Below are positions 33,517-64,000 of a DNA stretch of 64,000 bases, one piece after another. The DNA lies in contig NC_133219.1 of the NCBI RefSeq assembly GCF_040436345.1, forward strand, positions 23,038,709 to 23,102,708, written 5' to 3'. The DNA comes from Pagrus major. Its lineage: Eukaryota; Chordata; Actinopteri; Spariformes; Sparidae. The notes beneath the pieces are model-generated. The model saw nothing but the letters and a program-made list of their open reading frames with translations. It was not told the DNA's origin and did no database searches. A program made the position numbers and the translations under genes. Every line of letters starts with the position of its first letter. Position 1 is the stretch's first letter.

Positions 33517-34563
33517 TTAAAGTGTTATAAGCACGTCGTCCGCATATAAGCAAATTTTGTTTTCTACTCCCTCTATGGAAATACCCTCCAGGGCTGACTC
33601 CTCCCTGATAGCCTGGGCCAGAGGTTCAATAAAAAGGTTGAAAAGTAATGGGCTGAGTGGGCAACCTTGTCTACATCCTCGTTGTAACGTTATCGAGTTT
33701 GAGAGACTCCCATTAATTTTTATCCTCGCTGATGGGGAGGAGTAAAGTGTTCTTATACACTGTATAAAAATTTCACAAAAGCCAAATCTTCTCATAACTT
33801 GAAATAAGAAGTCCCATCCAACCAAATCAAAGGCCTTCTCAGCATCAAGGCTGAGAAGAACCACACTCAATTTTGTATCAGAGATGTGGTTAATAATATG
33901 GAGGACTCTCCTTATGTTGTCATGTGTTTGCCTGTTTCTTACAAAGCCCGTCTGGTCCTCATCAATCAAGAAAGGCATCACTGTATCCAATCTCCTGGCC
34001 AGTATGGTTGCATATAATTTATAATTTGTATTTAAAACACTGATTGGTCTATAGCTCTTACATTCTGCTTTATCTTTTCCCTCTTTTGGTGTGACTGATA
34101 TAAATGCTTCCCTCCATGATGGTGGGAGGGCTCCTCCCTTAAGTATATAATTAAAGGAGGATTTTAACAAGGGGAGCAATGCCTCTTTCATGCATTTATA
34201 CCATTCTGATGGGAATCCATCACAGCCCGCCGATTTGTTAGTCCTGAGGCCTGAAATTGCACTATCAATTTCTTCTGTTGAGATTTCAGACACAAGTTTT
34301 TCATTTTGGTCTTTGCCGATAGAGGGGAGATCTAATGAGGTCAGAAATTTTTGAATTGTTGACTCGTCTGTCTCATCAAACTGTGTGTATAATGAGTTGT
34401 AGTATGTTTCAAATGCTTTCTGAATACCCTCCAATTTAGTAGTTACCTTATTTGTTACGGGATCCTTGATTGTGTGAACTGTACTTTCTACTTGTTGTTT
34501 ATTAAATCTCCATGCAAGTAGTTTAGATGCTTTAGGACCCGCCTCATAATGGCTTTGCTTCAT
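33517..34563 (-). pseudogene. L1 ORF2 reverse transcriptase domain
   Basis: This is a long open stretch (348 codons) of non-LTR reverse transcriptase. Visible blocks in order are SAGCDGFPSEWY, YRPISVLNTNYKL, LDAEKAFDLVGW, QRGCRQGCPLSPLLFNL and the catalytic CLYADDVLIT (the YADD box). Block spacing fits the L1 clade. A TAA just after the catalytic box (near 33,517) interrupts the frame. The next segment resumes downstream with only short open stretches up to 33,312. Confidence 0.93.
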
Positions 34564-34621
34564 GAAAGTTTTTTCTCAATTTCCTCACTAAGAATCTTGT
34601 CGATCTCCTGCTTAACTGGTC

Positions 34622-35302
34622 TCATTTGTTCAAGTATATTGACGCCTTTACTGTTACTGTGGACTTCTGTAATTGTTTTTGTAGGCCTAGCAACTTTTCA
34701 GCTTTAATCTTTTTTAGTCTTGCAGACTTAGCTATGATTTTCCCTCTAAGGCTGGCTTTCGATGCATCCCACAGAATGGCTGGGTTAACCTCCCCATTAT
34801 CATTATGTTCCAAGTACATTTTTAATTCATCAGCCATTTCACTTTTAAATGTGCTGTTGTTCAATAAGCTCAAATTTAGTCTCCATAGAGTAGTTTTTGG
34901 TTTCCCATCTAAATTCATTTTCAGGTTTAATCCAGAATGATCAGAAATGTCCCTCTGTCCAATTGTGCAGTCTTTCACTTTATGATAGTCTTTGTTAAAC
35001 ATAAAAAAGTAGTCGATTCTTGAGTGATTATTATGCCTTGCAGAGTAAAATGGGAATTCTTTATCGGATTGGTGTAGGTGCCGCCAGATATCTATCAGTC
35101 CTAATTCCTGCAGCATCTTGTATATTTGTTTTTCTATGAGACTCTTTTTCCTCATTCTATTAGTTGTGTCTAGTCTGGGATTCAAAAGCATATTGAAGTC
35201 TCCTGCGCAAATAAGCGTGCCATATGTTTCTGCTGCAATCAGACTGAATATCTTCTTGAAGAAGGTAAGATCGCTACCTGGTGGGGCGTATACATTACAC
35301 AA
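34622..35302 (-). pseudogene. L1 ORF2 endonuclease domain, partial
   Basis: This is the C-terminal half of an AP-like endonuclease, the nickase used in target-primed reverse transcription. Recognisable motifs in order are CNVYAPPGS, CAGDFNMLL, SRIDYFF and the SDHSGL segment carrying the terminal catalytic Asp-His. The N-terminal half with the first catalytic Asn and Glu is missing. The frame is lost near 34,622. Sequence resuming in other frames between there and the RT segment shows at least one frameshift and a stop. Confidence 0.88.
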
Positions 35303-35335
35303 AGTAATTTCTTTATGTCCCAGTTTGCCCCTTTT

Positions 35336-35834
35336 GTATTTTTCATGAATATTTTAATGAAGAGTCACCATTTTTCATGAAGACATTGGGGATAGGGCTA
35401 GGGTTAGGGTTATGGTCAGGGGGTTGACCGATTGACTCGTAATCGATCACACATGTCGTCCTATGCTGGTGGAATGAGAGACAGCAGTTTTTATTGGATT
35501 TTTAGTGGAATTTCTTTTTTTCATGAATATTTTTTTCAAGAAATCACCATTTTAGCGAATACACGCCCAATTTTTTCAATAGCTCCCAGGTCATTTGAGC
35601 CATTGACTCAAAATCAATGGCCAAATGTCTTGTTATACTGGTAGAATGAGACACAGCTGTTTTTATTGGATTTTAGAGGAATTTGTATTTTTCATGAATA
35701 TTTTCAAGAAAAGTCACCATTTTTCCTGAAAACATGACCCAACTTTTTTCAATAGGTGTAACCATTCAGCAACAACTACTTCAGAAAATGAATGTTGCCA
35801 ATTTTGTCCAGTGTCTCTTGGATGTTCAGGACAA
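35336..35834. repeat. Decayed satellite right of the LINE
   Basis: Three degraded monomers are recognisable by gaccgattgactcg, ctatgctggtggaatgagag, ttggatttttagtggaattt and tttttcaatag. One short telomeric remnant (gctagggttagggttatgg, 35,397-35,415) remains. Divergence is much higher than in the main array. Confidence 0.85.
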
Positions 35835-38520: not shown

Positions 38521-39916
38521 TCACAGAATTTTTTCTTGGACTATATAGAAAACAACAGATGCAAAAATTAGCCAAGCAGTAAACTTTAGCCAAAACATCA
38601 GCAAGTTTGGAATCCAGAGTCCAGAGAAAGAAGGCTGAACCTGAGGCGAACTTTCTTTGCTCGGATTCTTTCTCCTCACTAATTCTGGACACTTATTCTC
38701 CTCCAGCCCTAAAACAACACAGTTGACCCAAAATACACACAGGTAGAAAGTATACAGAGCACCTCATCTACGTTAAATATAAACCTATTTAAGTTGCTGT
38801 GGTTGGGAAGATTACTACAAAACACTGGCTTTGTATGCAGCCTTGAAGGATTTTTTTTTTTTTTTTTTTTTAAATCATTGAAGTCCTTTAAATTACTTCC
38901 TACATTCTAGTAAAAGTAATTTAAACCTGATAATCCATTTTGAAATCAATGACATGTTAAATTGGCTAAACAAAACTTTAATGTGTCTGGACTGGAGAAG
39001 ACAGTAAATTTACATACCTGCTTGTGGACTTAATATCACGTTTTGTTGCTTTCTCTTCTTATTCTCTTCTTGAATGGGTGAACCCTGGAATAGGGAGATA
39101 AACATGGGACAGGTGTTGTGTTGCAGTGAACAACAGTTTACCACAGTGTCGGTAAAATCACACTTTAAAAGAATATTTTCCATTGACTAATGAAACCCAG
39201 ATCATACCTGTCTCTCCTTTTCTCTCAAATTCCTCAAGTGGGCTGAAGAGGAGGAACTGAAGTTTTCCATCTTCATATTACCTGCAGAATGGCAATCCAA
39301 GATTAAAGAAGGAAACAACTGACTTCTCTCCATTTTTATAAAACATTAATTTATTATAACGTCTCGTAATTCAGAGTCAAACTGCAATTAAAAAGGAATC
39401 TTAGAAAAAAGAGCCAGTTCTACTTCCGAGATTTAAGAAATATCTTTGAGAAGGGCTTGACAATGCAATTAAAAAAAAACAAAACAAAAAACTTTTCATG
39501 AACCTGCAGGGCTTCTGTACAGCTGACAGTCCTTCTTGATGTGAGCACTTGATCCACACAGGAAGCAGCAGCGCATCTCCAGTGCATCTCTTTTCCTCCA
39601 GTGCTCACTCTTGTGTCTGACCTGATCCCTGGCGTCCTCTCCTGTGTCCTTTCTGTCTCGCAGGTGCTCAGGCCTTCTGTCCGAGTCCTTTCTATGCCTT
39701 GACCTGAGCCAAAATGTTCACCATTATAATAATAATCATAATAATACAGACATGTGGTTATGTGGTGATAAATTCTGACATGTGCTGAGATTATACCTAC
39801 TTCTTACGCATGGGGCAGTCCTTCATGAAGTGGCCAATCTTGCCGCAGATGCGGCAGCAGCGGTCGTTGGGAGCCACTTCTCCCTCAGTGAGGACTTCAG
39901 GATCAAAGAAGTACTC
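38521..39916 (-). other. tut7: tut7 C-terminal zinc knuckles and tail
   Basis: Exon 39916-39801 carries a CCHC knuckle (C1182, C1185, H1190, C1195). Exon 39703-39504 carries another (C1246, C1249, H1254, C1259), preceded by an Arg/Lys/Asp-rich stretch. Two short exons (39281-39208, 39084-39018) follow. Two terminal exons are then possible from the same phase-1 donor. Exon 38708-38521 adds 62 residues ending in a hydrophobic stretch, with two AATAAA signals on the minus strand at about 38,484-38,498. Exon 38333-38284 adds 16 residues ending RKSPVE. Confidence 0.75.
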
Positions 39917-42900
39917 CTGCAACAGGTGAAGATAAATCACAATTTCAAAGCTCACTTCCCCCACAATAATGCAAATATGGCATTTAGACAGCAAATACCA
40001 ACCATCTGACTGGGGTACACAGGAGGAAAGGCTTTGACTGGTGTGCCAAACACTGTTCTGCCATTGATGAAAGCCTTCATGATGAAGTTAGTCACTGTTT
40101 TAGTGAGAGAGAGATGTGAGAGGACCGGACAATACATTTGAAAAGAAAGAGACAGCAGGATTAAGGCTATGAGACAACAGAAGACAGATAAACAGAAATA
40201 ATCTTACTTTTCCTGGACAGACCAGCACCAAGATTATGATTCAGGTCAAATGGATCTGTAATAGGAACGGAGGAGAGAGAGCAACAAATTAAACAATTAA
40301 AAATCAATTTCCAAGCAACCATACACAAGTCATTTCAATTCAGAAAACAACCCAACAATAATAATCATTAATAGTGATAAGTATTTAATGAACTGAATGG
40401 ACAGCAGCATGTAATGATGATTCAAAAAGTGCCAAAACAATAATTTCAGTCGTTGCATCTGCCGGTTGGAATAATTGTTTGGACCGCGAGTTTGTCCCAT
40501 AAGCTGACCTTCAATGACAATGTATTTGGACGTCCACTGTTTGTTGAAGGTGGTGAGACGGCCATGCTGACGGATACAGACAACATGCTCTCTGAAGTCA
40601 AAATCCTCAGTGTAGAAGCGGAGCAGGCCAAGCCACAGCTCGCCCACCGTCTCAGTGTTCTTCCCTTGCTGTGGCCAGCGACTGGGCTGCAGGTTGAAGA
40701 TGACAAGATTGACACGTTAATAAAATATGGTGTGACCGGCAAATTCACTAAAGCATGTATGTGAAATGTACAAAACACTCACTAGTGTTTTTAAATCATC
40801 AAAGAAGTACACGTTCCAGCCATCAACCAGCACCTCCGGCTTTTTCTTTCCATCATAAATCTGAAACAAAAAAGGACAGTGGAGAGAAGTTGAAGTTCAT
40901 GGTTATATTAACATTCTATAATTGCTCACATTTGCATTAGTATGCTTGGGTATATTTTATGTTTTGTCTAGACAGAAAAAGTATTTAGTAACATTCAAAT
41001 TCAAGTTTGAACGAAAAGAAACCTCAAGTTTTAATCTTTTTTGCAAACATGTCATCTGTACCTCTTGCAGCACAGGGATAACTGGTGGGTTCCTCTGCTG
41101 GAGAAAGAACAGCACCATGAGGGTGTAAGCGTAGGACGACAGGCTGCCACGGGAAGCATCCCCAATGTCACACATCTGTAATGGGACAAAAATTAACATG
41201 TAAATACAGTAATGGAATACAATCTACAGTATAATATTATCCTATGTTGTGTGTTTGTGTGTGTGAGAATGAAGCACACTCACTTTGGCAAAAACCTTCA
41301 TGACGTAACAGAGGATCTTCACTCGCCTGTCAATGGCAGCATATGAAGCTAGCAGGTGTGTGTTGTGCAGGGCCTGAAAACAAAAAGGTTTGTCTTAAAG
41401 CACACCTATTTAAGTTATTCAACATCATCCAAGACAAAATTAAACAAAAAAGAGGGAGAAAGATCCCTACCAGAGTGTTGTAGAGACTAATGTCTCCCTC
41501 AAGGCCGGTGCGAACGTGGTAGAACTTCACGATGGGTACTTTTGCTGTCGTGATTGGCAGGATGTTCTTCAGGCCTGGTGACACAATACATTTAACATCA
41601 AGAACCTTGTGTGAGCCACTTAAGCACATAAATGCCAAATCTTCTGTAAATGCAGCTGAAATCTGTTATCAAACAGAAGTTAAAAAGGTATTTAGGGGAG
41701 TTGAGGTGAGGCTCTAAGGCTATAAACTGCACAGACTATGAAGTCCTTTGAGACAAATGTGTGATATTGGGCTGCATCAATAAAACTACTACTTTATTAT
41801 TACTAACCTGGGTGTTTCTTCAGCAGTCTCGCCAGGCTTTCGATTATAGTGATGCAGTCAACATCCTGTGGAAGAAATTCAGGAATCACGCCAAACGAAT
41901 CACAATTAAAACAAAGAATTTCATTCAATCCCCAACGATTGTAAGAAAAATGAATGAATACCAACGAATAAATATTACTCCATTACAACGTTTTCAGACT
42001 TGAATAGGTTACAAAATTACATCTCACTACTTTGTCCATTTTCAAATTCCTTGTACAGTCAAATAAGGCTAATGCTAAACAAGAGCATACATGACCACAA
42101 ATACAGGTTGACACCTCCTTATGTGACTACTATTAAGGTTTATTTTGTATAGAAAGCTAACTTACATCTATGCTCTCCTGCCCCTCCAGCACCATACAGA
42201 TGTCTAGGTCACTCTGTCTGAAGCCAAAGCCATTTTTGGAGGATCCAAATAGTTTCAACCGAGCTCCTGTCCATCAGAAAACATGACTGTCAGCTTCATC
42301 ATAAACGTGAACATCTTAGTGGTGAATTTGCAAGCCAATTAAATGCAATATCAAGCATTATTGGGTAGGTTAAGTCTGAAAATATAAAGATGCTAAACAA
42401 GAGTGAACGTGGTGGTTTACTTCACCTGCAAACTGTCGTCTGACGAACGTCTCCAGGTCTTGAAGGATGTGCTCCCTTACACCCACTTCCAGTTCATCTG
42501 GGGCAAAGTCGGCTAAAAAAGAAAGACACAGTCATACACTTATTATCATCTTTGAACACAACAGTCAATATGAAAGTGTAACCACCACCTGCTTGATAAT
42601 ATTCTACATATTTTCCATTTTAAGTCATGTTTCCCCAAAAGCAACTTCTGACACTGCTACATTTCTGTTTTCCCTCTTCTGATTTTTGACAGCAGGAATA
42701 GAAGCCCCATCTTTTTTAGCCTTATATAGAAATTTGAGGGTGTCGTTTATGCTAATTTTTTAAGTTCACTAGTGCACGCCTACTCATGAACAGGTGGGAT
42801 TAATCAAGGTGATCCAAGCAATTTTCATTAAGGTTTTGCAATTAAGAGTTTCTTGAATCCCACTCGAACACCTAAGCAAGATTAAGATAAGGATAAGAAT

Positions 42901-45900
42901 ATGAAAATATTCTTGCATGAGCCCCACTCTTCATCACATATGTTTATGCCACATGTAAAAGATAATCAAGTGCCTTGAAAGCCTAATTCAATTGAAACCA
43001 TTCCTTCTATAAAAAGAAATACAAAAAAGTATGATGTTTTACTATTGGTATTGCACTTGTAATACTTGTCAACTGGCAAATTTTAGAAATCTAATGTCTG
43101 TAGTATACAGGTGGTGGTATATTCATTCTTGCAGTTAATGTGATCACCTCTGAAGCAACATACTCATGCAATCACATAATACTCACAGTAGCACTGCTCA
43201 CAGACTTTGTTAAGGACACTGAGAAACTCTGGTGTTATTGTTGGCAAAGGATCCAGCTGCACTTTCTTGAAGTCTTCTGGACAGTCTTTCTTCAGGTGTC
43301 CATCACGCTTACACAAGCTGCACACGACCATGTGTGACTGAAAGAGATTGAGAGGAGTTTAACTGATGTACAGACATCAGGAAGCTTATTTGCCTTCCAG
43401 TCACCTACAACTCAAATGATTACTACATAACTTTAAAATGTTCAGTTTGAAATTAAGATGAAGAGCATTGCTTTCCAGAGAGGTTTTCATGACTACTGAA
43501 CATAAAGTTAACACAAACATGAGGCTATACTGACCTTCCCTCTGGTGAAAGCTTGCCTTGTGAAGTCATAAGACTTTTTCCTCTGTTCTTGGATCTTATT
43601 TTCTGGGCTCCCATCTTTGATTGTATCCTCTAAAAGATGTGGTACAGAAATATCCTCTGGTGCCAACTCCACCTCCTCCTCTTCCTCATCCATTGAGCCA
43701 GGTGTGTCCAAAGCTGGGCCCTCCTCATCAGACAAAAGCTCCTCCCCTGAGATCTCATCTACTGGGAAAATATCCTCATCCTCTGTGGTGAAGCTGTCCA
43801 AGTGGTGTCTGTTATGCATGTCCACATCAACATCCTCATCCTCCTCATCCTCAGACAGGCTGCTTTTGCCCAGGTCCACTTTTTCCTTTTCTCTCTCTTC
43901 ATCAGAGTCACTGTACTCCTCAACTTCCTCCTCATCCTCAATAATGCAATCAGAGTCTTCAGGACCACTCTCTGCAGCTTTATTTGCATGTTGTGATTCG
44001 ATGCTGAGCTGACTGAAATCTGATGCAATTTCTTCATTCAAAGCATTTGCGTTTGCCCCTTTAACAGGTCCACGCTGTGCCTGTGTCTTGCGACCAGCAG
44101 CCGGCGTGTTGAGCGGCATTGCAAAGTACTTGTATGTGGTTTTGAGGCAGTGGATGATGTACTCGTACATTTGCTGGCTGTTCAGCGTGCGGGCCACATT
44201 TCGCTTCACAGCAAATGGGTCTGAAAAGAGAAATTGGTATTAGCTGCAATTAAACCATGTAAGAGTAATAAATCTCTTCATGTATTAAACAGAGACAGGA
44301 TTTTGTCCATCATTTAAAAAGCTATTAGACACATTAATGGATATGCTAATATCCATTAATGGCTGGGCTTCGTGAAGTCAAAACTAAAGAAACAACTTAC
44401 AATAGAATGGATTTTCTATGGCTCTAATGGATCCTATTCACAACCATCAATGCATTGAAAGTATGTGTGATTTTTTTTCAGTACCCAAAAGTGAAAACGT
44501 TTCGAATTCATACAACAAAAAATGAGAAAGCTGCAGACCCTCCACAGCGATGCGTTTCTTGGGCCAGTCTTTCATCTCTCGGGATAGGACAACACTGGTC
44601 CGCACGCTGATCACATTGTCAGCCAAGTTGAACTCCAGCGAGTAGAAGCGAAGCATTTCAACCCAGAGAAGCCCAACTTCCACAGGCCTGTGAGGGCTCT
44701 GAAACACCAGTGGCACCTGCAAGGAAACATCAGGACAGTACTTTCAGGCACTAGTTAGGATAGTGGATTAAAATAGACACGTATGTTATTACCAGTTTCA
44801 AAAAGCAGTGTGCCTTATTAAATGCCAACATGATCAATGTTTCATTACGAACTATTTTCTGTGTTTTGGTCGCCTTCAGATGTATCTGAGCGATTACCTT
44901 TAACAACAATAACGGGCAAGGTGTTCATTATGATACACTACCTGTTGTATTAGATGGTTTAAAGTCTCTTTTTTTTTTTAACTGAGGTGAAAAGATTGAA
45001 AGTATCTGATCTATAAAAAGCATATTCATCAACCAACACATTCTTTTCAGCCAAAACATGAGTCTTCAGGATTACCTTTCCCTTTATAGAGGAACCATCT
45101 GCTGGCTGTGACGACTCTTTTGTGGAAGGGTTGTAAGCCCAGTGTAAATATCCATCCTCTGCATGCGTGAGATTGAAGTCTGACAGCCTGCTGAGTGAAA
45201 ACACCTTAATCTAAAGACAATCAGAGGATTAGATTCTATTGACAACAGCTAACCAATACTGAAATTAATACTGTTTATTTAATTTCAGGGTCAAAATGGG
45301 AAGAAACACACACCTCTTGTTTCAGGTAAGCAGGCAAGAGGGGCTCTTTGCGCTGCTGTAAGAAGTAGATCACCATGAGGGCAAAGACGTATGGTGGTAG
45401 CCCACCTTCCTCCGCACGGTCGATCACACAGATCTAAGTGAGAAGCAGGAACAACACGTTAAAAATAAAAGGGATATTTCACCCCAAAAAAAAAAAAGGT
45501 ACGCATATTTAGCCCCTTTTGATAGCCGCCTGGCTAATGTGAGCGACATGTCAGGTTCTCAGCTGGGAACATACCTGGGCCCAGCGTCTGAGGCCCAAAA
45601 CTAGTGGGAGGAGGAGTTGCTCGCGACTGGATAGAGCAGAAAGATAGGAGGTGGTCTGGAACGCGTTTTCATTCCCTGCACTGACTTTGCAGAGGAGGCC
45701 ACTGTTGAGAAAAATAACAGTTTCACTTTTCATTAGTGGTTTGCGGCTCTTGTGCTTGTGTGTGAACAATTATCTTTTTTCTCTTTGCATGTAGAGTTTG
45801 ATTTATACATTTACATGAAAATCAAGTGACCCAGTAACGGTCGGAAATACCCACCTGCTTTTCTCTTTGCAGATGACCACGGGCACCCTGGCATGAAAAT

Positions 45901-48181
45901 CAGCTTCCAGATCAATAAAAAGAGCTGAGGACACAACAGGACATGTTGTTTTAAAACTGACAGTCTAGCACATATGGTGGAATTTCTTAAGCAAGGAAAG
46001 AAATCTTGCAGTTTAATGAATAAGAGATGACTCACGGCACACAGTGAGGCTCTCCTTGACCAACAACAAGACGTCTGGCTGATGCATCTGTGAATACATT
46101 CCATTTCAAAGCCTTCATACAACATAAATATGATATAAAAAAGGACAAATGAACGTGGTGCATCCACAAATTATTCACCTTAATACAAGAATGTTAAATA
46201 ATTGCAATATAAATATTTTTACAACCAGAATGTCAAAACAGTTCCTATGAAGTTATACTGGAGCTGATTATTCTGAGTATCTGATAAACATATGATATGA
46301 ATTATCCTGAACCTTATTATTGAACTATATTATTTTATTCTCATCTGAATTGCATCCTTGTTTTAGAAAAAGTAAGAAACCTAATTAGAAACAGTTAAAA
46401 AAACAACAACAGTAGTATTCACACTGGGCTACTCACGTGAGGTGGATACTGAATGTCAATGTTGACATCAGAATCCTTAAATCCAAACTTAGTGCAAGAT
46501 GATCCATATAGCCTGAGCTTGATCTCTACAGATGACAGAAAGAGAAAGGGAATCATGTTATTAACATTAAAATGTATCTGGCAGAGTAATGAAATGATGT
46601 AAAATATAAGAACCAGCAGTCTGTCCACTACAAGGCAATATCAGCCTCAGGATAAATTTTAAAACATGTCTGAGTCACCAAACAATATTTCGTCCTTGGG
46701 TGACTTACCTGGCAGGACGGACAGAAGGAGGTCTTGCATGATGGTGACAGCATGTTGTCTCCTCTCAACATCCTCATCATTCATCCCATGTTCCTGCACT
46801 ACAGCCTCTAGTGCAGCACTCACTGCGCTGATCTGCTCTGGACCCGGAGGGAGAATCTCAGTCAGCATCACCTGCTCTTGTCTCTCCTATGAACACAAAC
46901 AAGCAAATTGGTTTCATCAAGACCTTTTCTGCTCAATGACAGGGTTGTGGTTTCATTATCATTAAATGTAATCATGGAAATTGACAGGACAACTTCTCAC
47001 CTTGGCCTTCTTCTTGTGCCGTTTGTCTCTGATATGCCTGTAAGCTTCAGACAGCGATTCCAGGAGAACTTCACATAGAGCGCAGGTGTAAAGAGCAGCG
47101 GGGTTGCTGTGGGCCCTCTGAACCAATATCAAAAAGGAGGAACGTACAGATATCAGAACATAGCTGCAATAACAATCCATTTCATTTTTTCATCCAAAAA
47201 TGCCCATCTTCTTAGCGATAAATCAACAAAATAAATATTCCTGAGGCTGTATATATGGACTACCACAGTTCGAGCCTGTACCTTCTTCAGGCTGTAGATC
47301 TCTTCTTTGTTAAGCCGCCTCTCTGCCTGTTGTAGGCTTTGAAGCTCTTTGGCTGAGAGTGTGGACTCTTCAAGGCCCCTGTTCTCTTCAGCAAAAGCCT
47401 TCTTCTTGTTTCTGTTTCTCCGTCTTCTCCCTTAAAAACAGAAGAAATACGTGTCAAAGATGTGATGACTGTTTTTGTAAGGCGTAATGTGAATCAGTAA
47501 TGTGTAAATGTCATGGATGATGGAGTAAAGCCAGTTCTTAACAGTCAGACTTGAGCTAGATACAGTACATCCTGTGATCAGGATCGGAGATGTAGGGGAA
47601 TAAAGAATCACGGTGGACCCCATTTTTAAAAAGGTGTTCGTTGAGGCTGCCGCCTGCCTTCGATTTTTCTTCGCTGAGGATAATCCTACAAGTGTTTCAC
47701 TCTTTCCCCAGAGTCTGTTTTCCAAATCCTCACCTGATTTATGAGCACTGCCATCGGTGGCCTCTCTCCTCCCTTGCTCCCTGTCCTCTCTTGGACCTTC
47801 TCCTTGCGAACTCCTCCTCCAGTGCTGCTGCTGCTGCTGTTGCTGCTGCTGTTGTTGTTGTTGTTGCGAGCGCTCTCTCCAGTTATCTTCTCGACTCCCA
47901 CCACTGTTCTCAGGGCCTGAGTACCACCGGAGGTCATCCTTTTGTGAGGGGCTGTGACCACCCCTGAAACCACCAGGGGAGTAGCTCATGGGCCCCAGTC
48001 CTCCCTTCTTGGGACTGGCCCGGTAGGGCCCACCTTGGTTCTTGCCCTGCTGACCTCCCTCTGATCTGAAGTTCTGTCCTCGACCCTGGTCCTGGATCCT
48101 CCAGCTCTCTGCCTTGTCTGCTGTTGCTCCCCGCTCCCAGCCGCCTTGCCTAGCCCGGTAAGGCCTGCCCGAGTTATCCAT
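38521..48181 (-). CDS. tut7: Terminal uridylyltransferase 7 (28 coding exons)
   Basis: TUT7/ZCCHC6 is a cytoplasmic enzyme that adds uridines to RNA 3' ends, including let-7 precursors (with Lin28) and deadenylated mRNAs. Reconstructed exons on the minus strand, 5' to 3': 48181-47701, 47430-47282, 47117-47001, 46886-46709, 46525-46437, 46087-46036, 45924-45855, 45701-45575, 45433-45314, 45210-45076, 44716-44539, 44220-43535, 43337-43187, 42512-42426, 42266-42166, 41865-41808, 41574-41471, 41373-41284, 41175-41062, 40860-40783, 40686-40509, 40255-40208, 40094-40003, 39916-39801, 39703-39504, 39281-39208, 39084-39018, and a last exon 38708-38521. All phases agree and every junction is GT-AG. 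The product is about 1,375 residues (human 1,495). The short C-terminus and the [19 protein letters not shown] segment favour TUT7 over TUT4. The start is the ATG at 48181 in [10 protein letters not shown], 18 nt after an acceptor. The last exon is uncertain; an alternative ends at 38,284. Confidence 0.93.
40003..43337 (-). other. tut7: tut7 catalytic module with first zinc knuckle
   Basis: Exon 43337-43187 carries a CCHC knuckle (C800, C803, H808, C813). The nucleotidyltransferase core follows. [19 protein letters not shown] supplies D893 and D895, and [12 protein letters not shown] supplies D954, so the catalytic triad of carboxylates is complete. Further family blocks are [32 protein letters not shown] and [17 protein letters not shown], with [20 protein letters not shown] near the end. 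This half should perform uridylation. Confidence 0.92.
43535..44220 (-). other. tut7: tut7 large exon encoding the acidic linker
   Basis: A single 686-nt exon (residues about 566-794) joins the two halves of the protein. It opens with [20 protein letters not shown], the end of the first PAP-associated domain. It continues into a long Asp/Glu/Ser-rich, low-complexity linker and closes with [10 protein letters not shown] just before the first zinc knuckle. An acidic insert at this place is typical of TUT7. The opposite strand shows a serine-rich open frame, an artefact of the repeated Glu/Asp codons. Confidence 0.9.
44539..46886 (-). other. tut7: tut7 N-terminal nucleotidyltransferase module, catalytically dead
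   Basis: Exons from 46886 down to 44539 encode a nucleotidyltransferase fold plus a PAP-associated domain (about residues 250-565). In the family this module is the Lin28-interacting half. The fold signature is [19 protein letters not shown], where the catalytic DxD has become D328-V-N330. The third carboxylate position lies in [11 protein letters not shown], without an Asp. It is therefore predicted inactive, as known for TUT4/TUT7. The PAP-associated part includes [18 protein letters not shown] and [13 protein letters not shown]. Confidence 0.88.
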
Positions 48182-51085: not shown

Positions 51086-52189
51086 ATGGTTTCCTTTGTG
51101 CACAGTGACGCTGTTCACAAGAGGAGACGGACAGACGCGCTCACACCGGTCCAGCAGCGGCAGACCGCCCGGCACAGGAAACAGACTCTCATGTCCAAGT
51201 TGGGTGACTCCGGTTTCGAGGAAGACTTGGGCACCCCTGCGCTTTCCTCCCCTGCTCGGATAGATGTGTCCCCGCTGCGTTCAGACGAGCCTCCAGCAGG
51301 GCAGCTCTCCACCTGGTACCTCCAGTACGGGGACATCGGTTACAGGATCCAGAGGGGGAAAGAGGCGCAGTTTGATCCCTGCAAAAGCCTGGCACGCCAA
51401 CCACAAGTAGGCTACAAGACACTTTATACAGTGACCGCGTCAGAAATGATATATTTTACTGAATGGAAGTATGAAAATGTGTGTGGCCTGTTTTTTTTTT
51501 CTTCTTTTTTTGCCAAAAAAATGTGTCTTACTTTTTATATTTCCATCAGAAGCAAATCCAAAACAAAAATATGACCTTTTAATCTAAGATAATTGTTGAC
51601 TTGATCGCCTTTTGGTGTTTCAAACCAATTACATTTTCTAAAACCCACTGCATTGTTTAGAATTTATCAAAGCACCACTTCCTCCAGCAGATCTCTGTTA
51701 ATTTCCGCTATCTACCTCTCAATATCTCTGCATATATTGTCAATAACATCCAATAGTCTTCTGAAAGTGACACAAAAATCCTGCCTCAGTGGAAGAAACA
51801 GTAGTGGTGACTGAATGCAAATATTTGTGACTTGCTGCCATTGAAGTGCAAAATCAGGCAACAGAGAGGGAGTTTATACTTTCATGCACCTCAAGAGGAC
51901 AAACACATGCCATACCTCTCCCTTTTTTTCATGTAATGTACTCTGTTGTATTCCCAGTTGACAGCGGAGGCGAGGTGTACACTCATCAGCTGGCTCATCC
52001 CTGTACACAAACATTTCCGTCTGTCCTTTGAGTGCTGCTGTCTGGCGGTGAACATCATGGACAGGTTCCTGGCATCCACACCGGTGGCTGCTGACTGCTT
52101 CCAGCTGCTGGGTATCACTGCACTCCTGCTGGCCAGTAAACAGGTGTGTTTTTGTGTGTGGCAAGTGGTTGGGGAACAGATTTTGTCTT

Positions 52190-52285
<96 letters not shown>

Positions 52286-52949
52286 GAGGTAGATGTGAAC
52301 AAGAATTTAAGTATAGTATAACTCATTCCCTTTCTCCTTGTCCACCCAGGTGGAGGTGTGCTCACCGCGGATCAGCCATCTCTTGTCGTTCTGCTGCGAT
52401 GCCTTCACTAAGGAGCAGCTCTGCAACCTGGAGTGCCTCATCCTCGTCCGTCTCAACTTCCGCCTCGACGCACCCACCCTGGCCTTCTTCCTGGACTATT
52501 ACACCAACTGCATTGAGGCTACCCAGCTCGTGTCTGAGAGTGCAGGTGGTGAAAGGTGTGCGAGAATGAATCCAGACAGAAAAACACCCAGGCGGTGCAG
52601 CAACCTCGCACGAAAGGTGTGCGAGTTGAGTCTAGCAGACTATGCCTTCAACAAATACCCACCATCTCTGACTGCGAGCTGTGCACTGAGGCTGGCTTGT
52701 GACTTACTGAAATCTGAACAAGGGCTCGTTGAGCATGCGATCATCCAGTCACAGGAAGAGCAGCGGGGCAGTTTTGTGGATGAACTATGTCCCCAACCAG
52801 TTTGTGCTCAACCATCTGAGAGCCCTGAGCTTTCTCGGCCTGTGAGTCAGGGGGGCTACAACCACAATCTGGCCCAGGAATGCAGAGAGAACCTGAAGCT
52901 TTTAGTGTCATTAAACCAGGAGGCACTGGAAGTGATGTCCACCATGTGA
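51086..52949 (+). CDS. ccno: Cyclin O (3 exons)
   Basis: Cyclin O is an atypical cyclin needed for mass centriole amplification in multiciliated cells. Exons are 51086-51406, 51958-52143 and 52350-52949 (stop 52947-52949), all phase 0, giving 368 residues (human 350). Exon 1 encodes a basic N-terminal tail and the lead-in [19 protein letters not shown]. Exon 2 (residues 108-169) encodes the first half of the cyclin box: [21 protein letters not shown] and [21 protein letters not shown], the last nearly diagnostic for CCNO. Exon 3 completes the fold, with [11 protein letters not shown] and [15 protein letters not shown]. The start is the first ATG (51086); upstream open sequence in frame has only GTG codons. 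The first donor (acaa|gtaggc) is slightly weak. Next on the same strand is mcidas, as in tetrapods. Confidence 0.95.
52191..52285 (+). repeat. (AGAT)n microsatellite in ccno intron 2
   Basis: About 95 bp of nearly perfect AGAT tetranucleotide repeats lie within the 206-bp second intron of ccno, ending about 65 bp before the exon 3 acceptor. Likely length-polymorphic. Confidence 0.97.
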
Positions 52950-54716: not shown

Positions 54717-57604
54717 ATGAAGATGCAAAGAGACAGAAAGGTGTTTGGTGCCATGTGCCCCAATCAAATGGGCCAACAGGGGAGGAGAGCTGCGGTGAGC
54801 AGAAAGGTATGAAATCTTTCTCCCATCTCTTCTCTTCTGTTCAGCTCTGTTGTTCAGTGGTGTTAACAGTTGTTCCCTGCAGGTGCCAAGAAGCAGCAGT
54901 CCAGTCGCCATGTACGTGGAGCTCCCCTGTATCATCGAACAAGGTATGCGCACCTCTGCCATTCTGACTGAACTTCAAGCATAAAGACAGCATGTGACAA
55001 TAAATAAATTCCGTGGATTGACTCATGCAGACACACTTTTCTCGTTTCAGCTTTTTCAACAATTGCATGGGATGATTTGGAGGACTGCGCGTCTGTGGTG
55101 AGAAGAGAGAGCGACTCCCTCGGCTCTCAGGTGAGGAGAAAAACTCAAGAAAGAACCAGAAAAAAACACTTTTTTCATGCTTTTGTGACACCTGACTTTA
55201 ATGTAAATCCACGCGTTTAGAGAGATATAACATGGTGGCAGATCTTTATCACTCCCAGGCTGTTAATGTTTGACACGATGTGCTGGAATTCTGCACAGGA
55301 GAGATTGATGTTTACCCATGACACGCAGGCTACCGCTAATTGGGCGGACCTCACACGTTTTATCCACAGGCAGCCTCTTTTGGCACAGCTCGCCGTGCGC
55401 ACAAAACACATTACGCTCCGGCACACTCGCTGACATGACCACCGAGACATATTCTGCCATAAGGCCACATTACCCTGCCTGGTCGTGGTGGGATTATCAG
55501 GTGTGGGGAAGCTACGATTTGTTTGTCCTCCAGTGAGATTTTAACACATGTATGTCTTTTAATAGTCAATTTGATTTGTCTGCAGGTGAATGAATCTGAT
55601 GCAGATGACCAGGACTTTGGAGATTATGCGCTGGACTTCATGGCAGGTGAGCAAAGACATTTAGATTTTTGCACTGATGTTGTGTGCTGTGTTGTTACGG
55701 CTACTATGATAGTAATAATCTTATCATCATCACCATCATCATCATCAACCCCTTGTGTTTGTCTCCTCTGTCAGACTCTCCTGCCACTCTGGAGAGCAGT
55801 CTGTCTCCAGATGAACTGGTACCCTTTCAGGGATGTGTCATACCTCCCCTCACCCCTCAGCGGTTCTCCTCTTCAGAAGACTGTCTGGTTCGCTCCTCCA
55901 CAGAAGCAGGTAATCCACCTGCCCAAGATGGAGCTCTGTGGCGAGGCATCACCCAGTGCCAGGGCAGGGCGTTGGGAGAATCCATGGAAGTCAACAATCA
56001 GGTAAATCCTTATTATAAGATTCATGACTAGCGTGACTTGACTTGATGAGGCAGTATTTATATGTGATTTATGTCATGAATGATCCAATTTGTGCTTTTT
56101 TGGATATGTTTGAGTTAGACAAATCCAAAATTTCTGCTCATCACCTTTGAGAAAACTGACACTTTCGGTCTTTCACTGACTCTGACTCAAGATGTCTCCA
56201 AAACGATGCTCATAAATATACCTTGAGTTTTTTTCGTTATATTTAACCTGGTTTGATCTAAAAATGTGTGGAGAGTTTGTATAAATCAGGAAAACATTAA
56301 AGGTGCCCTGCAGAGTTTTCTCATAAATAAACAACATCAGTATTTTATAGGTCTAACAAATGTGTTGAATGCATTTCCTTCCTCACAAAACATTTGCAAA
56401 GCCAAATTCTTTCAACACTTTGAAACCTGCATTGTTTACATCCATGTTTACTTCCTATAGCAGTTTTATTTTCCGTGCCTTTGTTGGTGCTTCGCTGCTT
56501 TTGTCGATGGCCTTTCCTTGACCACCATCAGTAGATCAGAGAATAATGTGAAACCACTGTCAAGAAGGAAGCCCACTCATAAAAAGACTGGCCCATAATG
56601 CTAACAATGGTCAAAAGTTATTAAATAAGGACTTATTCTTCAGTTTTTCAACAAATACTGGTTGTTGAATCAAGGTGCACTGAAACGTCTGTGTGTCTAT
56701 ATTTTGTGATAGTGACAGTAGTTATTTGGCGATGTGTACCTGCAAATCATGCAAAAAAATTCCACATAGTGCCCTTGAAAACATCACTAAAAGTGCACTT
56801 TGTGGTTGTCATGTGACAGGTGCAATAGTGCTTTGAAATAACTGAATATTCATACAGTGAAGACTGTTATCGTTGTACATGAAGTGGTCACAGTGCGGTA
56901 AAGCAAAGGGCTGTCATTGGAAGTTAACACATTTGTCTGTGTGTCTGCAGCTTCATGAGACTCTCCACAGAAGAAAGGAAGAGATCGACTCCCTTCAGGA
57001 GAGAAACCTTCACCTCAGGCAGCTGGCCAGTCGTGCGAAGCACCTAGCCTCAGTTCTTGAAGTGAGTACATGACTGAACACACACTTTCATCCTGGATTC
57101 AATATAACCTCTTATCCCTGACCCCTTATCTTTATTTCTTGCACTTCCACTATGTTCTTTCAGAAACTGATGACAGTCAGAGACCCTCATGTGAGAGAGG
57201 CAGTGATGCCCTGTGGTGATAAAACTTCACTGAGTCCCTGTAAGAGGCAGCGACTGGATGAAGGATATGAAACAGAGTCCTCTGACTCGGTGGAGGACAT
57301 GCTGAGGGACATCAGCACACGCTGCAACGCTGTCCTGCATGGTGCCGCTGCTGGAACAAAACTCCAGCAGGAACCAGAGACTATACGCATGTACGGTTCA
57401 TTCTCAGGCCTACAGACTTCTACTTCCAAAGGCAGCAGCACAGCAACAGATGGAGCAGAGTCAGAAGAGATCGCCTCGTCTTTCAGAACTTCTGTTAGAG
57501 ATCACTGCACCATAAGGACTCAGGTGTTTCCTCACGGACGAGCCTTCACCTCGAGGACTCAGCAGGGAGGATACCGCTTTCGCTGGGTTCCAAACCACAG
57601 CTGA
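54717..57604 (+). CDS. mcidas: Multicilin (7 exons)
   Basis: Multicilin is a geminin-family nuclear coregulator that joins E2F4/5-DP1 to switch on the multiciliated-cell programme. Exons are 54717-54806, 54883-54943, 55051-55130, 55586-55646, 55775-56001, 56951-57061 and 57164-57604. All phases agree; the product is 354-356 residues (human 385). The frame is fixed by exon 2 and gives an N-terminus with [11 protein letters not shown], matching the family's ICPNR segment. Both 54717 and 54723 are possible ATGs; 54723 has the better context. Exons 3-4 are acidic ([24 protein letters not shown]). The end of exon 5 and exon 6 encode the geminin-type coiled coil ([19 protein letters not shown], about residues 166-212). 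The last 32 residues form the E2F-binding TIRT domain ([23 protein letters not shown]). An AATAAA lies at 57,973. Confidence 0.94.
56297..56777. mobile_element. MITE in mcidas intron 5
   Basis: The left end is ttaaaggtgccctgcagag and the right end is ttccacatagtgcccttga. Reverse-complemented, the right end gives an imperfect match to the left. The internal part has aaacctgcattgtttacatc and tttgttggtgcttcgctgct, typical of a family found across spiny-rayed fishes. No coding capacity. It accounts for about half of intron 5. Confidence 0.6.
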
Positions 57605-62358: not shown

Positions 62359-64000
62359 ATGCGTCTGAGAAGTGGAGATTCAGATGACTGGGTGAGTCAT
62401 TTTATAATTTATTTAATAATATATAAACAGCCTTAAAGGTGGACTATTTCCTGACTATCACTTGCTGACCTGTTGCAACCTGGCAACCACTTCAAACTGT
62501 AAACACATGGCTGTCTCTCTGGTCAACTGCAACCATAATTAATGGAAATACTGATGGAAATTCTGCACCATCTTGTACATATTAGTCTTAATTTTTCAAG
62601 TATTATTATGTTTCTCAGATTTAATGTTTAATAACTATTCCCTGTACAACTTAACCGGAGTCAAATTCCTTGTTTGTGTACACATACTTACCAATAAAGC
62701 TGATTCTGATCTTAATTTACTCTTAAGTTGTTTAAAATAACACCTGCTTTTACTTTCTTACTGCTCTTCTTTATAACATTCATTAAAAAATCCAAAACTC
62801 TCTGAAGATCCCAATATTTTTTTACATATTTTTTTTATTGTGCATCACCTTGACTGAACTCTTTGTGTTTCTATCACCAGGACAACATGAGGAGAAGGCT
62901 GAGAGACCTTGTGGGAAAGAGAGGACACTGTCCCTTCAAGGTAAGCGAGCAAATAAAGGGACAATTCTGCAGGAAAACAATCCAAACTTTCGGGTTAATC
63001 GAGCCAGCTGCATCCACTCCAGCCTCCATCCTCTGAGCTGGTGGTGACAGTGTGGCAGTGTACTGCTGCTGGCTGTGTTATCTTGAGTGACAGCTGTCAG
63101 CTACACTCCTCACTGCTGCTGCCACAGACATCCAACCGACGCTCTGAGTCAGCTGCAGGATAAAAAGTCAAACAGTCAAAATAGCCAAAGTCAAATAAAG
63201 TCAGGAGGAGGAACGGAACAGGCAGTAAAGTCTACATTCAGCTCAGTGTCACATTATATTATATCATAACAGTCAAATTAATTCATTTGCATGCAGCAGG
63301 CCGGTGAGCTGTGACTGGTTGGGAGGCAGTGTAATGTTAGCTGACGTTTGTGTTGCCAGCTCACACTGCTCTGCTACCCGAACGGTTACATTTGACTATT
63401 TTTATATTTATCATTCTGATGAAGAGATACAAGAATCCCACAAGATCTTCAGACGTTTATTTTCAGTGTTTGAGCTTCTGGTATCACAAAGAGCTCGAGT
63501 AGAAGAATTTAGACGGATAAAAATCGCCTGCTTTTACAGTTTTTTCAGCTCTCTTATCGTGGGTGGCTGGAAGGCAGTGTCTTGTTAGCTGGTTGATTGT
63601 GTGTGTGTGCCAGCTTACCTGCTGCTGCCCTCCAGCTGTCCATATAAATCCACACCAGCAACACCAGAGGACTTCTGCAACTTCAGTCAGTTTAAAAGAG
63701 CGGGCTCGGTTTCAGGGCAGCGGTTGTATATTTTATGAAATTTTTTCAAGTAAGTATTTAGACTCAGTCGTAACCAGTAACCAGTCAAGTTATTGTTCCT
63801 GAGCTATGCCATTGACTAATTTTTTTGACATTTGTGCAAAGTTTTGTTGTAATTGTCACATGATTTGTTGAGTATTGGTAAAAAAAAAAAAAAAAGGGTT
63901 TTGTGAGGTCACACCGACCTTCGACCACCAAAATCTAATCAGTTCATCTTTGAGTCCAAGTGGATGTTTGTGCTAAATTTGAAGAAATTCCCTAAAAAGT
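62359..64000 (+). CDS. cdc20b: Probable CDC20B, first two exons (gene continues beyond the window)
   Basis: Exon 1 is 62359-62391 (MRLRSGDSDDW) with donor gtgagt. Exon 2 is 62881-62940 (DNMRRRLRDLVGKRGHCPFK, 20 codons) with acceptor atcaccag and donor gtaagc. Both are phase 0. The pattern W-D-N-M-R-x-x-L-x-x-L-x-x-K-R fits the N-terminus of CDC20B (W-E-S-I-M-R-V-L-x-x-D-L-x-x-K-R), a WD40 CDC20 relative. The assignment also rests on position: same strand and order after ccno and mcidas as in tetrapods, and a mir-449 cluster in the second intron, where it lies in mammalian CDC20B. The WD40 part is not in the window. The peptide is short, so identity alone would be weak. Confidence 0.68.
62472..62487 (+). 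promoter_or_regulatory. Possible RFX site in cdc20b-like intron 1
   Basis: GTTGC-AACCT-GGCAAC has X-box-like half sites, a perfect GGCAAC and an opposing GTTGC, but the spacing is longer than usual. A weak candidate. Confidence 0.25.
63048..63128 (+). ncRNA. mir449: miR-449/34 family hairpin 1
   Basis: The predicted mature strand starts at 63,053 (UGGCAGUGUACUG...) with seed GGCAGUG at positions 2-8. The 3' arm (cactgctgctgccacag) pairs with the 5' base (tgtggcag, 8 bp). Internal pairing is weaker than in the two hairpins that follow. It lies 113 nt after the exon 2 donor of the cdc20b-like gene, sense strand. Confidence 0.72.
63315..63385 (+). ncRNA. mir449: miR-449/34 family hairpin 2
   Basis: The mature strand is predicted at 63,324-63,345 (AGGCAGUGUAAUGUUAGCUG...), with the family seed GGCAGUG and the UUAGCUG 3' half characteristic of miR-449/34. 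The 3' arm (ccagctcacactgctctgct) pairs with it: gcagtgt with acactgc, and agctg with cagct. The base is closed by ggttggg/cccgaac. Confidence 0.87.
63564..63638 (+). ncRNA. mir449: miR-449/34 family hairpin 3
   Basis: The mature strand is predicted at 63,572-63,593 (AGGCAGUGUCUUGUUAGCUG...), seed GGCAGUG. The 3' arm (ccagcttacctgctgctgcc, then ctccagc) forms a long basal stem (gctggaaggcag with ctgccctccagc) and an apical stem (ttagctgg with ccagctta) around a GT-rich loop. This is the strongest of the three hairpins. Confidence 0.88.
63642..64000 (+). other. Rest of cdc20b-like intron 2 in the window
   Basis: AT-rich intronic sequence with an A run (63,881-63,896). No further hairpin with the miR-449 seed was seen before the right edge. 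Confidence 0.5.

Follow-up and report, generated by a model that had tools for sequence, protein, structure and literature searches.

A predicted cluster of three conserved mir-449 hairpins in the second intron of a cdc20b-like gene of Pagrus major

In human, miR-449 is described as lying in the second intron of CDC20B (PMC6220262). MCIDAS, CCNO, and CDC20B have been reported together in coelacanth, elephant shark, and certain Euteleosteomorpha, and the loss of CDC20B and mir-449 has been inferred for Otomorpha, zebrafish included (PMC8470418). The question addressed is whether a stretch of Pagrus major DNA in which GGCAGUG recurs three times holds a true mir-449 cluster and, if so, whether it lies in its expected setting. 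The stretch analyzed, referred to here as the window, is 64,000 nucleotides long (contig C5, positions 23038709-23102708).

On the plus strand, GGCAGTG is found at 63054, 63325, and 63573, with spacings of 271 and 248 bp, which agrees with the original prediction of three segments about 250-270 bp apart. By itself, this heptamer is not remarkable, as the window holds 9 copies versus 5.49 expected, and at least 9 were obtained in 8 of 100 shuffles. Because the heptamer is common in the window, the weight of the argument rests on the hairpins. A second element, UUAGCUG, had been predicted in two of the three segments and is indeed present in copies 2 and 3 and absent from copy 1. An extended motif, GGCAGTGNNNTGNTNNCTG, which was picked post hoc after inspection of the sequence, occurs twice (copies 2 and 3) versus 0.06 expected when one mismatch is allowed; copy 1 lacks it.

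All three sites can be assigned to plus-strand hairpins that match the Rfam mir-449 model (RF00711). Copy 1 spans 63039-63124 (44.2 bits, E 8.4e-9; fold of -43.6 kcal/mol), and its predicted 5p arm, UGGCAGUGUACUGCUGCUGGCUG, begins at 63053. Copy 2 spans 63310-63390 (42.9 bits, E 2e-8), with a predicted 5p arm, AGGCAGUGUAAUGUUAGCUGACG, from 63324; copy 3 spans 63558-63644 (60.3 bits, E 1.2e-13), with a predicted 5p arm, AGGCAGUGUCUUGUUAGCUGGUU, from 63572. Thus, the span first proposed, 63048-63638, gave the place of the cluster correctly but clipped bases of the hairpins, whose precursors together occupy 63039-63644. An alignment of the three copies has 33 invariant columns out of 88, including those of the seed.

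Folding of each segment, suggested earlier as a check, gives hairpins of -37.8 to -43.6 kcal/mol with the GGCAGUG seed in the 5' arm at each of the three sites. For copies 1, 2, and 3, respectively, the fold z-scores are -1.87, -2.18, and -3.07, and among 200 dinucleotide shuffles 10, 6, and 1 equal or surpass the native fold; for copies 1 and 2, these z-scores are modest. A complementary 3' arm had also been claimed at each site, and it is there: in one common frame, 17 of the 22 mature-arm bases are paired in each copy, with energies of -38.5 to -42.6 kcal/mol. One could argue that these are simply chance hairpins around a common heptamer, given that the count of 9 in the window is close to expectation. 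However, the other 6 GGCAGTG sites fold differently, with 2-14 of 22 bases paired and energies of -6.2 to -28.0 kcal/mol in the same frame; the three hairpins are consecutive and lie in the expected intron; and the Rfam E-values range from 2e-8 to 1e-13. The E-values and the fold comparison refute a chance origin, whose probability is negligible.

The orientation of the hairpins is not fixed by folding alone, since the minus strands of copies 2 and 3 also fold (z-scores of -2.11 and -4.09, the latter versus -3.07 for the plus strand of copy 3). It is fixed by the Rfam bit scores, which are 60.3 (plus) versus 20.0 (minus) for copy 3 and 42.9 versus 28.0 for copy 2. For copy 1, the clan match listed on the minus strand is mir-34, at 15.5 bits.

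The original prediction had named a mir-449 cluster on the basis of a miR-449/34 signature, and this choice of family is supported. RF00711 aligns with each of the three hairpins over 86 of 86 model positions. None of them reaches the gathering score of 60.4 bits, copy 3 falling short by 0.1 bit; consequently, a scan at gathering thresholds lists no mir-449 here. Within clan CL00087, the member kept on the plus strand is nevertheless mir-449, rather than mir-34, at all three sites. In a search of the 786-Mb genome (25 contigs), in which 57 of 113,925 first-look candidates were scored, the matches listed at E<=1e-3 include three to mir-449, all in the cluster, and no second mir-449 cluster elsewhere. 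As 1 of 14 prokaryote genomes used as controls (Bacillus subtilis) also gave a match at E<=1e-3, below the cut-off, such an E-value alone is no proof. No further mir-449 hairpin was found at E<=1 in the rest of the intron covered by L004:1-6500 (63293-69792 in window numbering), where nothing but copy 2 (on both strands) and copy 3 matched.

A mir-34 origin, either as mir-34-type genes or as strays of a mir-34b/c cluster, deserves a hearing, because the seed is identical and both families belong to the same clan. Yet mir-34 matches (RF00456) are listed elsewhere, on contigs C13 and C7 only, at 62.1 and 58.3 bits, both above the cut-off (63 of 139,691 candidates scored; no match in 14 controls). 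In these loci, the spacer between the seed and UUAGCUG is 3 nt (C13) and 2 nt (C7), whereas it is 5 nt in copies 2 and 3, the two copies to which this measure applies, since copy 1 does not have UUAGCUG. We take the 5-nt spacer to be a mark of mir-449 as opposed to mir-34, and the difference thus tells the two families apart within one genome. The C13 locus (L010:4818-4885) is presumably mir-34b-like. No second mir-34 hairpin was found within about 5 kb on either side of it at E<=0.1, and so a clustered mir-34c is not seen there. Taken together with the retention of mir-449 as the clan member and with a cdc20b intron being the place of mir-449, the separate C13 and C7 loci and their different spacers lead to the rejection of a mir-34 identity, which we consider highly improbable. 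The cluster has its seed and clan in common with mir-34a and mir-34b/c, which also have a related role in multiciliated cells, and differs from them in location (C7 and C13 for the mir-34 loci) and in UUAGCUG spacing.

The placement of this mir-449 cluster in the second intron of a cdc20b-like gene, as had been proposed, is borne out by an exon model built without transcripts and by the WD40 exons that follow. In the model, the ATG lies at 62359, and standard splice sites allow exons 1-3 to be read through in a single frame. The coding part of exon 1 (MRLRSGDSDDW; 62359-62391, plus strand) ends in a GTGAGT donor and is in frame with exons 2 and 3; exon 2 (DNMRRRLRDLVGKRGHCPFK; 62881-62940, plus strand) has the acceptor ATCACCAG and the donor GTAAGC. 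Intron 2 would then occupy 62941-64000 (plus strand) within the window and extend to 67341 in window numbering, with exon 3 beginning at 67342 in phase 0. The cluster begins about 100 nt into this intron. About 6-9 kb downstream on the same strand are CDC20/Fizzy WD40 exons (C5:23108138, 23109051, and 23109747; best score 57.4 bits), the last blade being at L004:8836-8988. In the search that gave the three C5 exons, 134 of 324 candidates were scored, and 3 of 14 controls gave matches, none above the cut-off. Because they are single exons, each scores far below the Pfam whole-protein cut-off. Stronger Fizzy-type loci are present on C21 and C11.

Two further observations concern the host gene. 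Just 3' of hairpin 3, the segment 63643-63749 may hold an alternative first exon of cdc20b, with a possible promoter at about 63643. Its features are a TATAAAT, the short frame MKFFQ, and a CAA|GTAAGT donor whose phase agrees with exon 3; the plus strand of the window has 4 GTAAGT in all. In addition, the window has 3 TTCCCGC sites, each of them no more than 1.8 kb upstream of the ATG of cdc20b. TTCCCGC and TTSSCGC are E2F-type motifs, but since their totals are below chance (3 versus 5.48 expected and 11 versus 17.24 expected, respectively), no inference is drawn from them.

The original prediction also held that ccno and mcidas adjoin the cluster, and both are identified upstream of cdc20b/mir-449 by their domains. 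Frames with the N and C cyclin domains of ccno lie at 51937-52949 on the plus strand (Cyclin_N, E 1.4e-18, 51937-52200; Cyclin_C, E 9.9e-8, 52317-52949). A plus-strand frame at 56861-57073 with a coiled coil is assigned to mcidas; its best PDB match is 4bry_B 'MULTICILIN' (E 3.8e-9), and it scores 17.1 bits with Pfam Geminin, below the 22.2-bit cut-off. A glutathione-peroxidase exon lies antisense within cdc20b intron 2 (C5:23104347-23104604, 79.5 bits), which, going by position only, would be gpx8; human GPX8 is presumably likewise nested antisense in a CDC20B intron.

Other features of the window lie farther upstream. Adjoining ccno, at 39797-46886, is a minus-strand gene of the terminal uridylyltransferase type (TUTase, PAP_assoc, and CCHC zinc-knuckle), which by its domain make-up we take to be of the TUT4/TUT7 type. 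Positions 1-31527 form a satellite array of about 31.5 kb, with units of about 173 bp and of 370-382 bp, within which telomere-type repeats (GGGTTA) occur in runs of about 6-13. As the array is internal to a contig of 42.4 Mb, a centromere or an old chromosome fusion is a possible explanation. Some 2 kb from the array, a LINE-type element at 33520-35353 on the minus strand encodes an RVT_1 reverse transcriptase (E 3.2e-36) and has weak endonuclease-like frames, below the Pfam cut-offs.

The three hairpins almost certainly represent a conserved miR-449 cluster within cdc20b intron 2. In the proposed mechanism, the hairpins would be transcribed as part of the cdc20b pre-mRNA while multiciliated cells differentiate. 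Drosha and Dicer would then excise them, and the 5p arms, with their GGCAGUG seed, would enter Argonaute. As in frog and mammals, the miRNAs would repress targets in the Notch pathway and the cell cycle as well as Cp110-type targets, leading to cell-cycle exit and the formation of many cilia. Such repression in multiciliated cells, with Notch, cell-cycle, and Cp110 targets, is summarized from primary work in PMC11545745 and PMC8470418. For the processing of copies 2 and 3, and for expression in Pagrus major, targets, and function, we infer by analogy a likeness to these systems. The idea that targets may differ among the copies through 3' pairing, which was part of the original prediction, is a guess from their sequences.

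It could be postulated instead that decay has put an end to the processing of one or two of the hairpins. Copies 1 and 2 score 16-17 bits below copy 3, and the UG and CNNC motifs, which are features of Drosha sites, are unevenly distributed: UG is present at -14/-13 in copies 1 and 2 and is not at -14 in copy 3, and CNNC is present at +17 in copy 1 and +18 in copy 3 and missing in copy 2. (Within 62941-64000, the background rate of TG is 0.082, and that of CNNC in a 3-nt range is 0.176.) However, all copies have retained the seed and the 17 of 22 paired mature bases, and the 5p arm of copy 1 matches an miRNA expressed in silver pomfret. Decay of this kind is thus unlikely, and a conserved cluster of three hairpins is the preferred reading.

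The match to silver pomfret (Pampus argenteus) involves miR-449-z, a brain miRNA measured by sequencing and qRT-PCR (PMC12467872). Its qRT-PCR primer contains TGGCAGTGTACTGCTGCTGG, which is identical to nucleotides 1-20 of the copy 1 5p arm and has one exact place in the Pagrus major genome, copy 1. Over these 20 nt, then, copy 1, although it is the least canonical copy, corresponds to a miRNA expressed in another fish. Under the spellings searched, PMC12467872 is the sole paper found to contain TGGCAGTGTACTGCTGCTGG, and the same kind of literature search found no printed 5p sequence for copy 2 or copy 3.

For other fish, the comparison is by name. Labeo rohita is an otomorph. Its gill miRNAs, as listed, include one under the tilapia name oni-miR-449b-5p (PMC10278310), an entry that sits uneasily with the published loss of mir-449 in Otomorpha (PMC8470418) and that may be a database-match look-alike. 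miR-449 has been reported in Atlantic cod (PMC4403832), and ssa-miR-449a/b-5p appear as table entries for Atlantic salmon (PMC6356880, PMC7565298); for both, the likeness to the Pagrus major cluster is one of name. Statements on tilapia mir-449 in PMC11324953 are predictions and a review of the work of others. The main text of PMC10778745 and PMC7574432 contains no mir-449, PMC12060346 has one miR-34a entry and no mir-449, and in PMC4159003 and PMC9511750 mir-449 occurs in the reference lists.

One of the closest known systems is the human mir-449a/b/c cluster, which is reported to have the same family, three copies, the second intron of CDC20B, and MCIDAS and CCNO as neighbors (PMC6220262, PMC8470418). 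The two differ in bases outside the seed and in the absence of UUAGCUG from fish copy 1. Human 449c likewise departs from UUAGCUG and, like copy 1, ends in GGCUGU, and the human order of transcription is c-b-a, which fits copies 1-2-3. These likenesses suggest a tentative hypothesis, somewhat doubtful at present: copies 1-3 might correspond one-to-one to tetrapod 449c, b, and a, in which case the trio would predate the split of ray-finned and lobe-finned fishes, and copy 1, being of the 449c type with an altered 3' half, would have retained a target set of its own ever since.

Taken together, these results describe a miR-449 cluster that is real but ordinary, its sequence facts following published work. 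It is a conserved orthologue, already known in the sense that the kept locus is published for certain Euteleosteomorpha (PMC8470418). What is indicated for the organism is that Pagrus major keeps the ccno-mcidas-cdc20b/mir-449 block, unlike zebrafish and its kin, for which PMC8470418 infers the loss of cdc20b and mir-449. A species with this block is suited to tests of what mir-449 contributes to multiciliated cells beyond mir-34.
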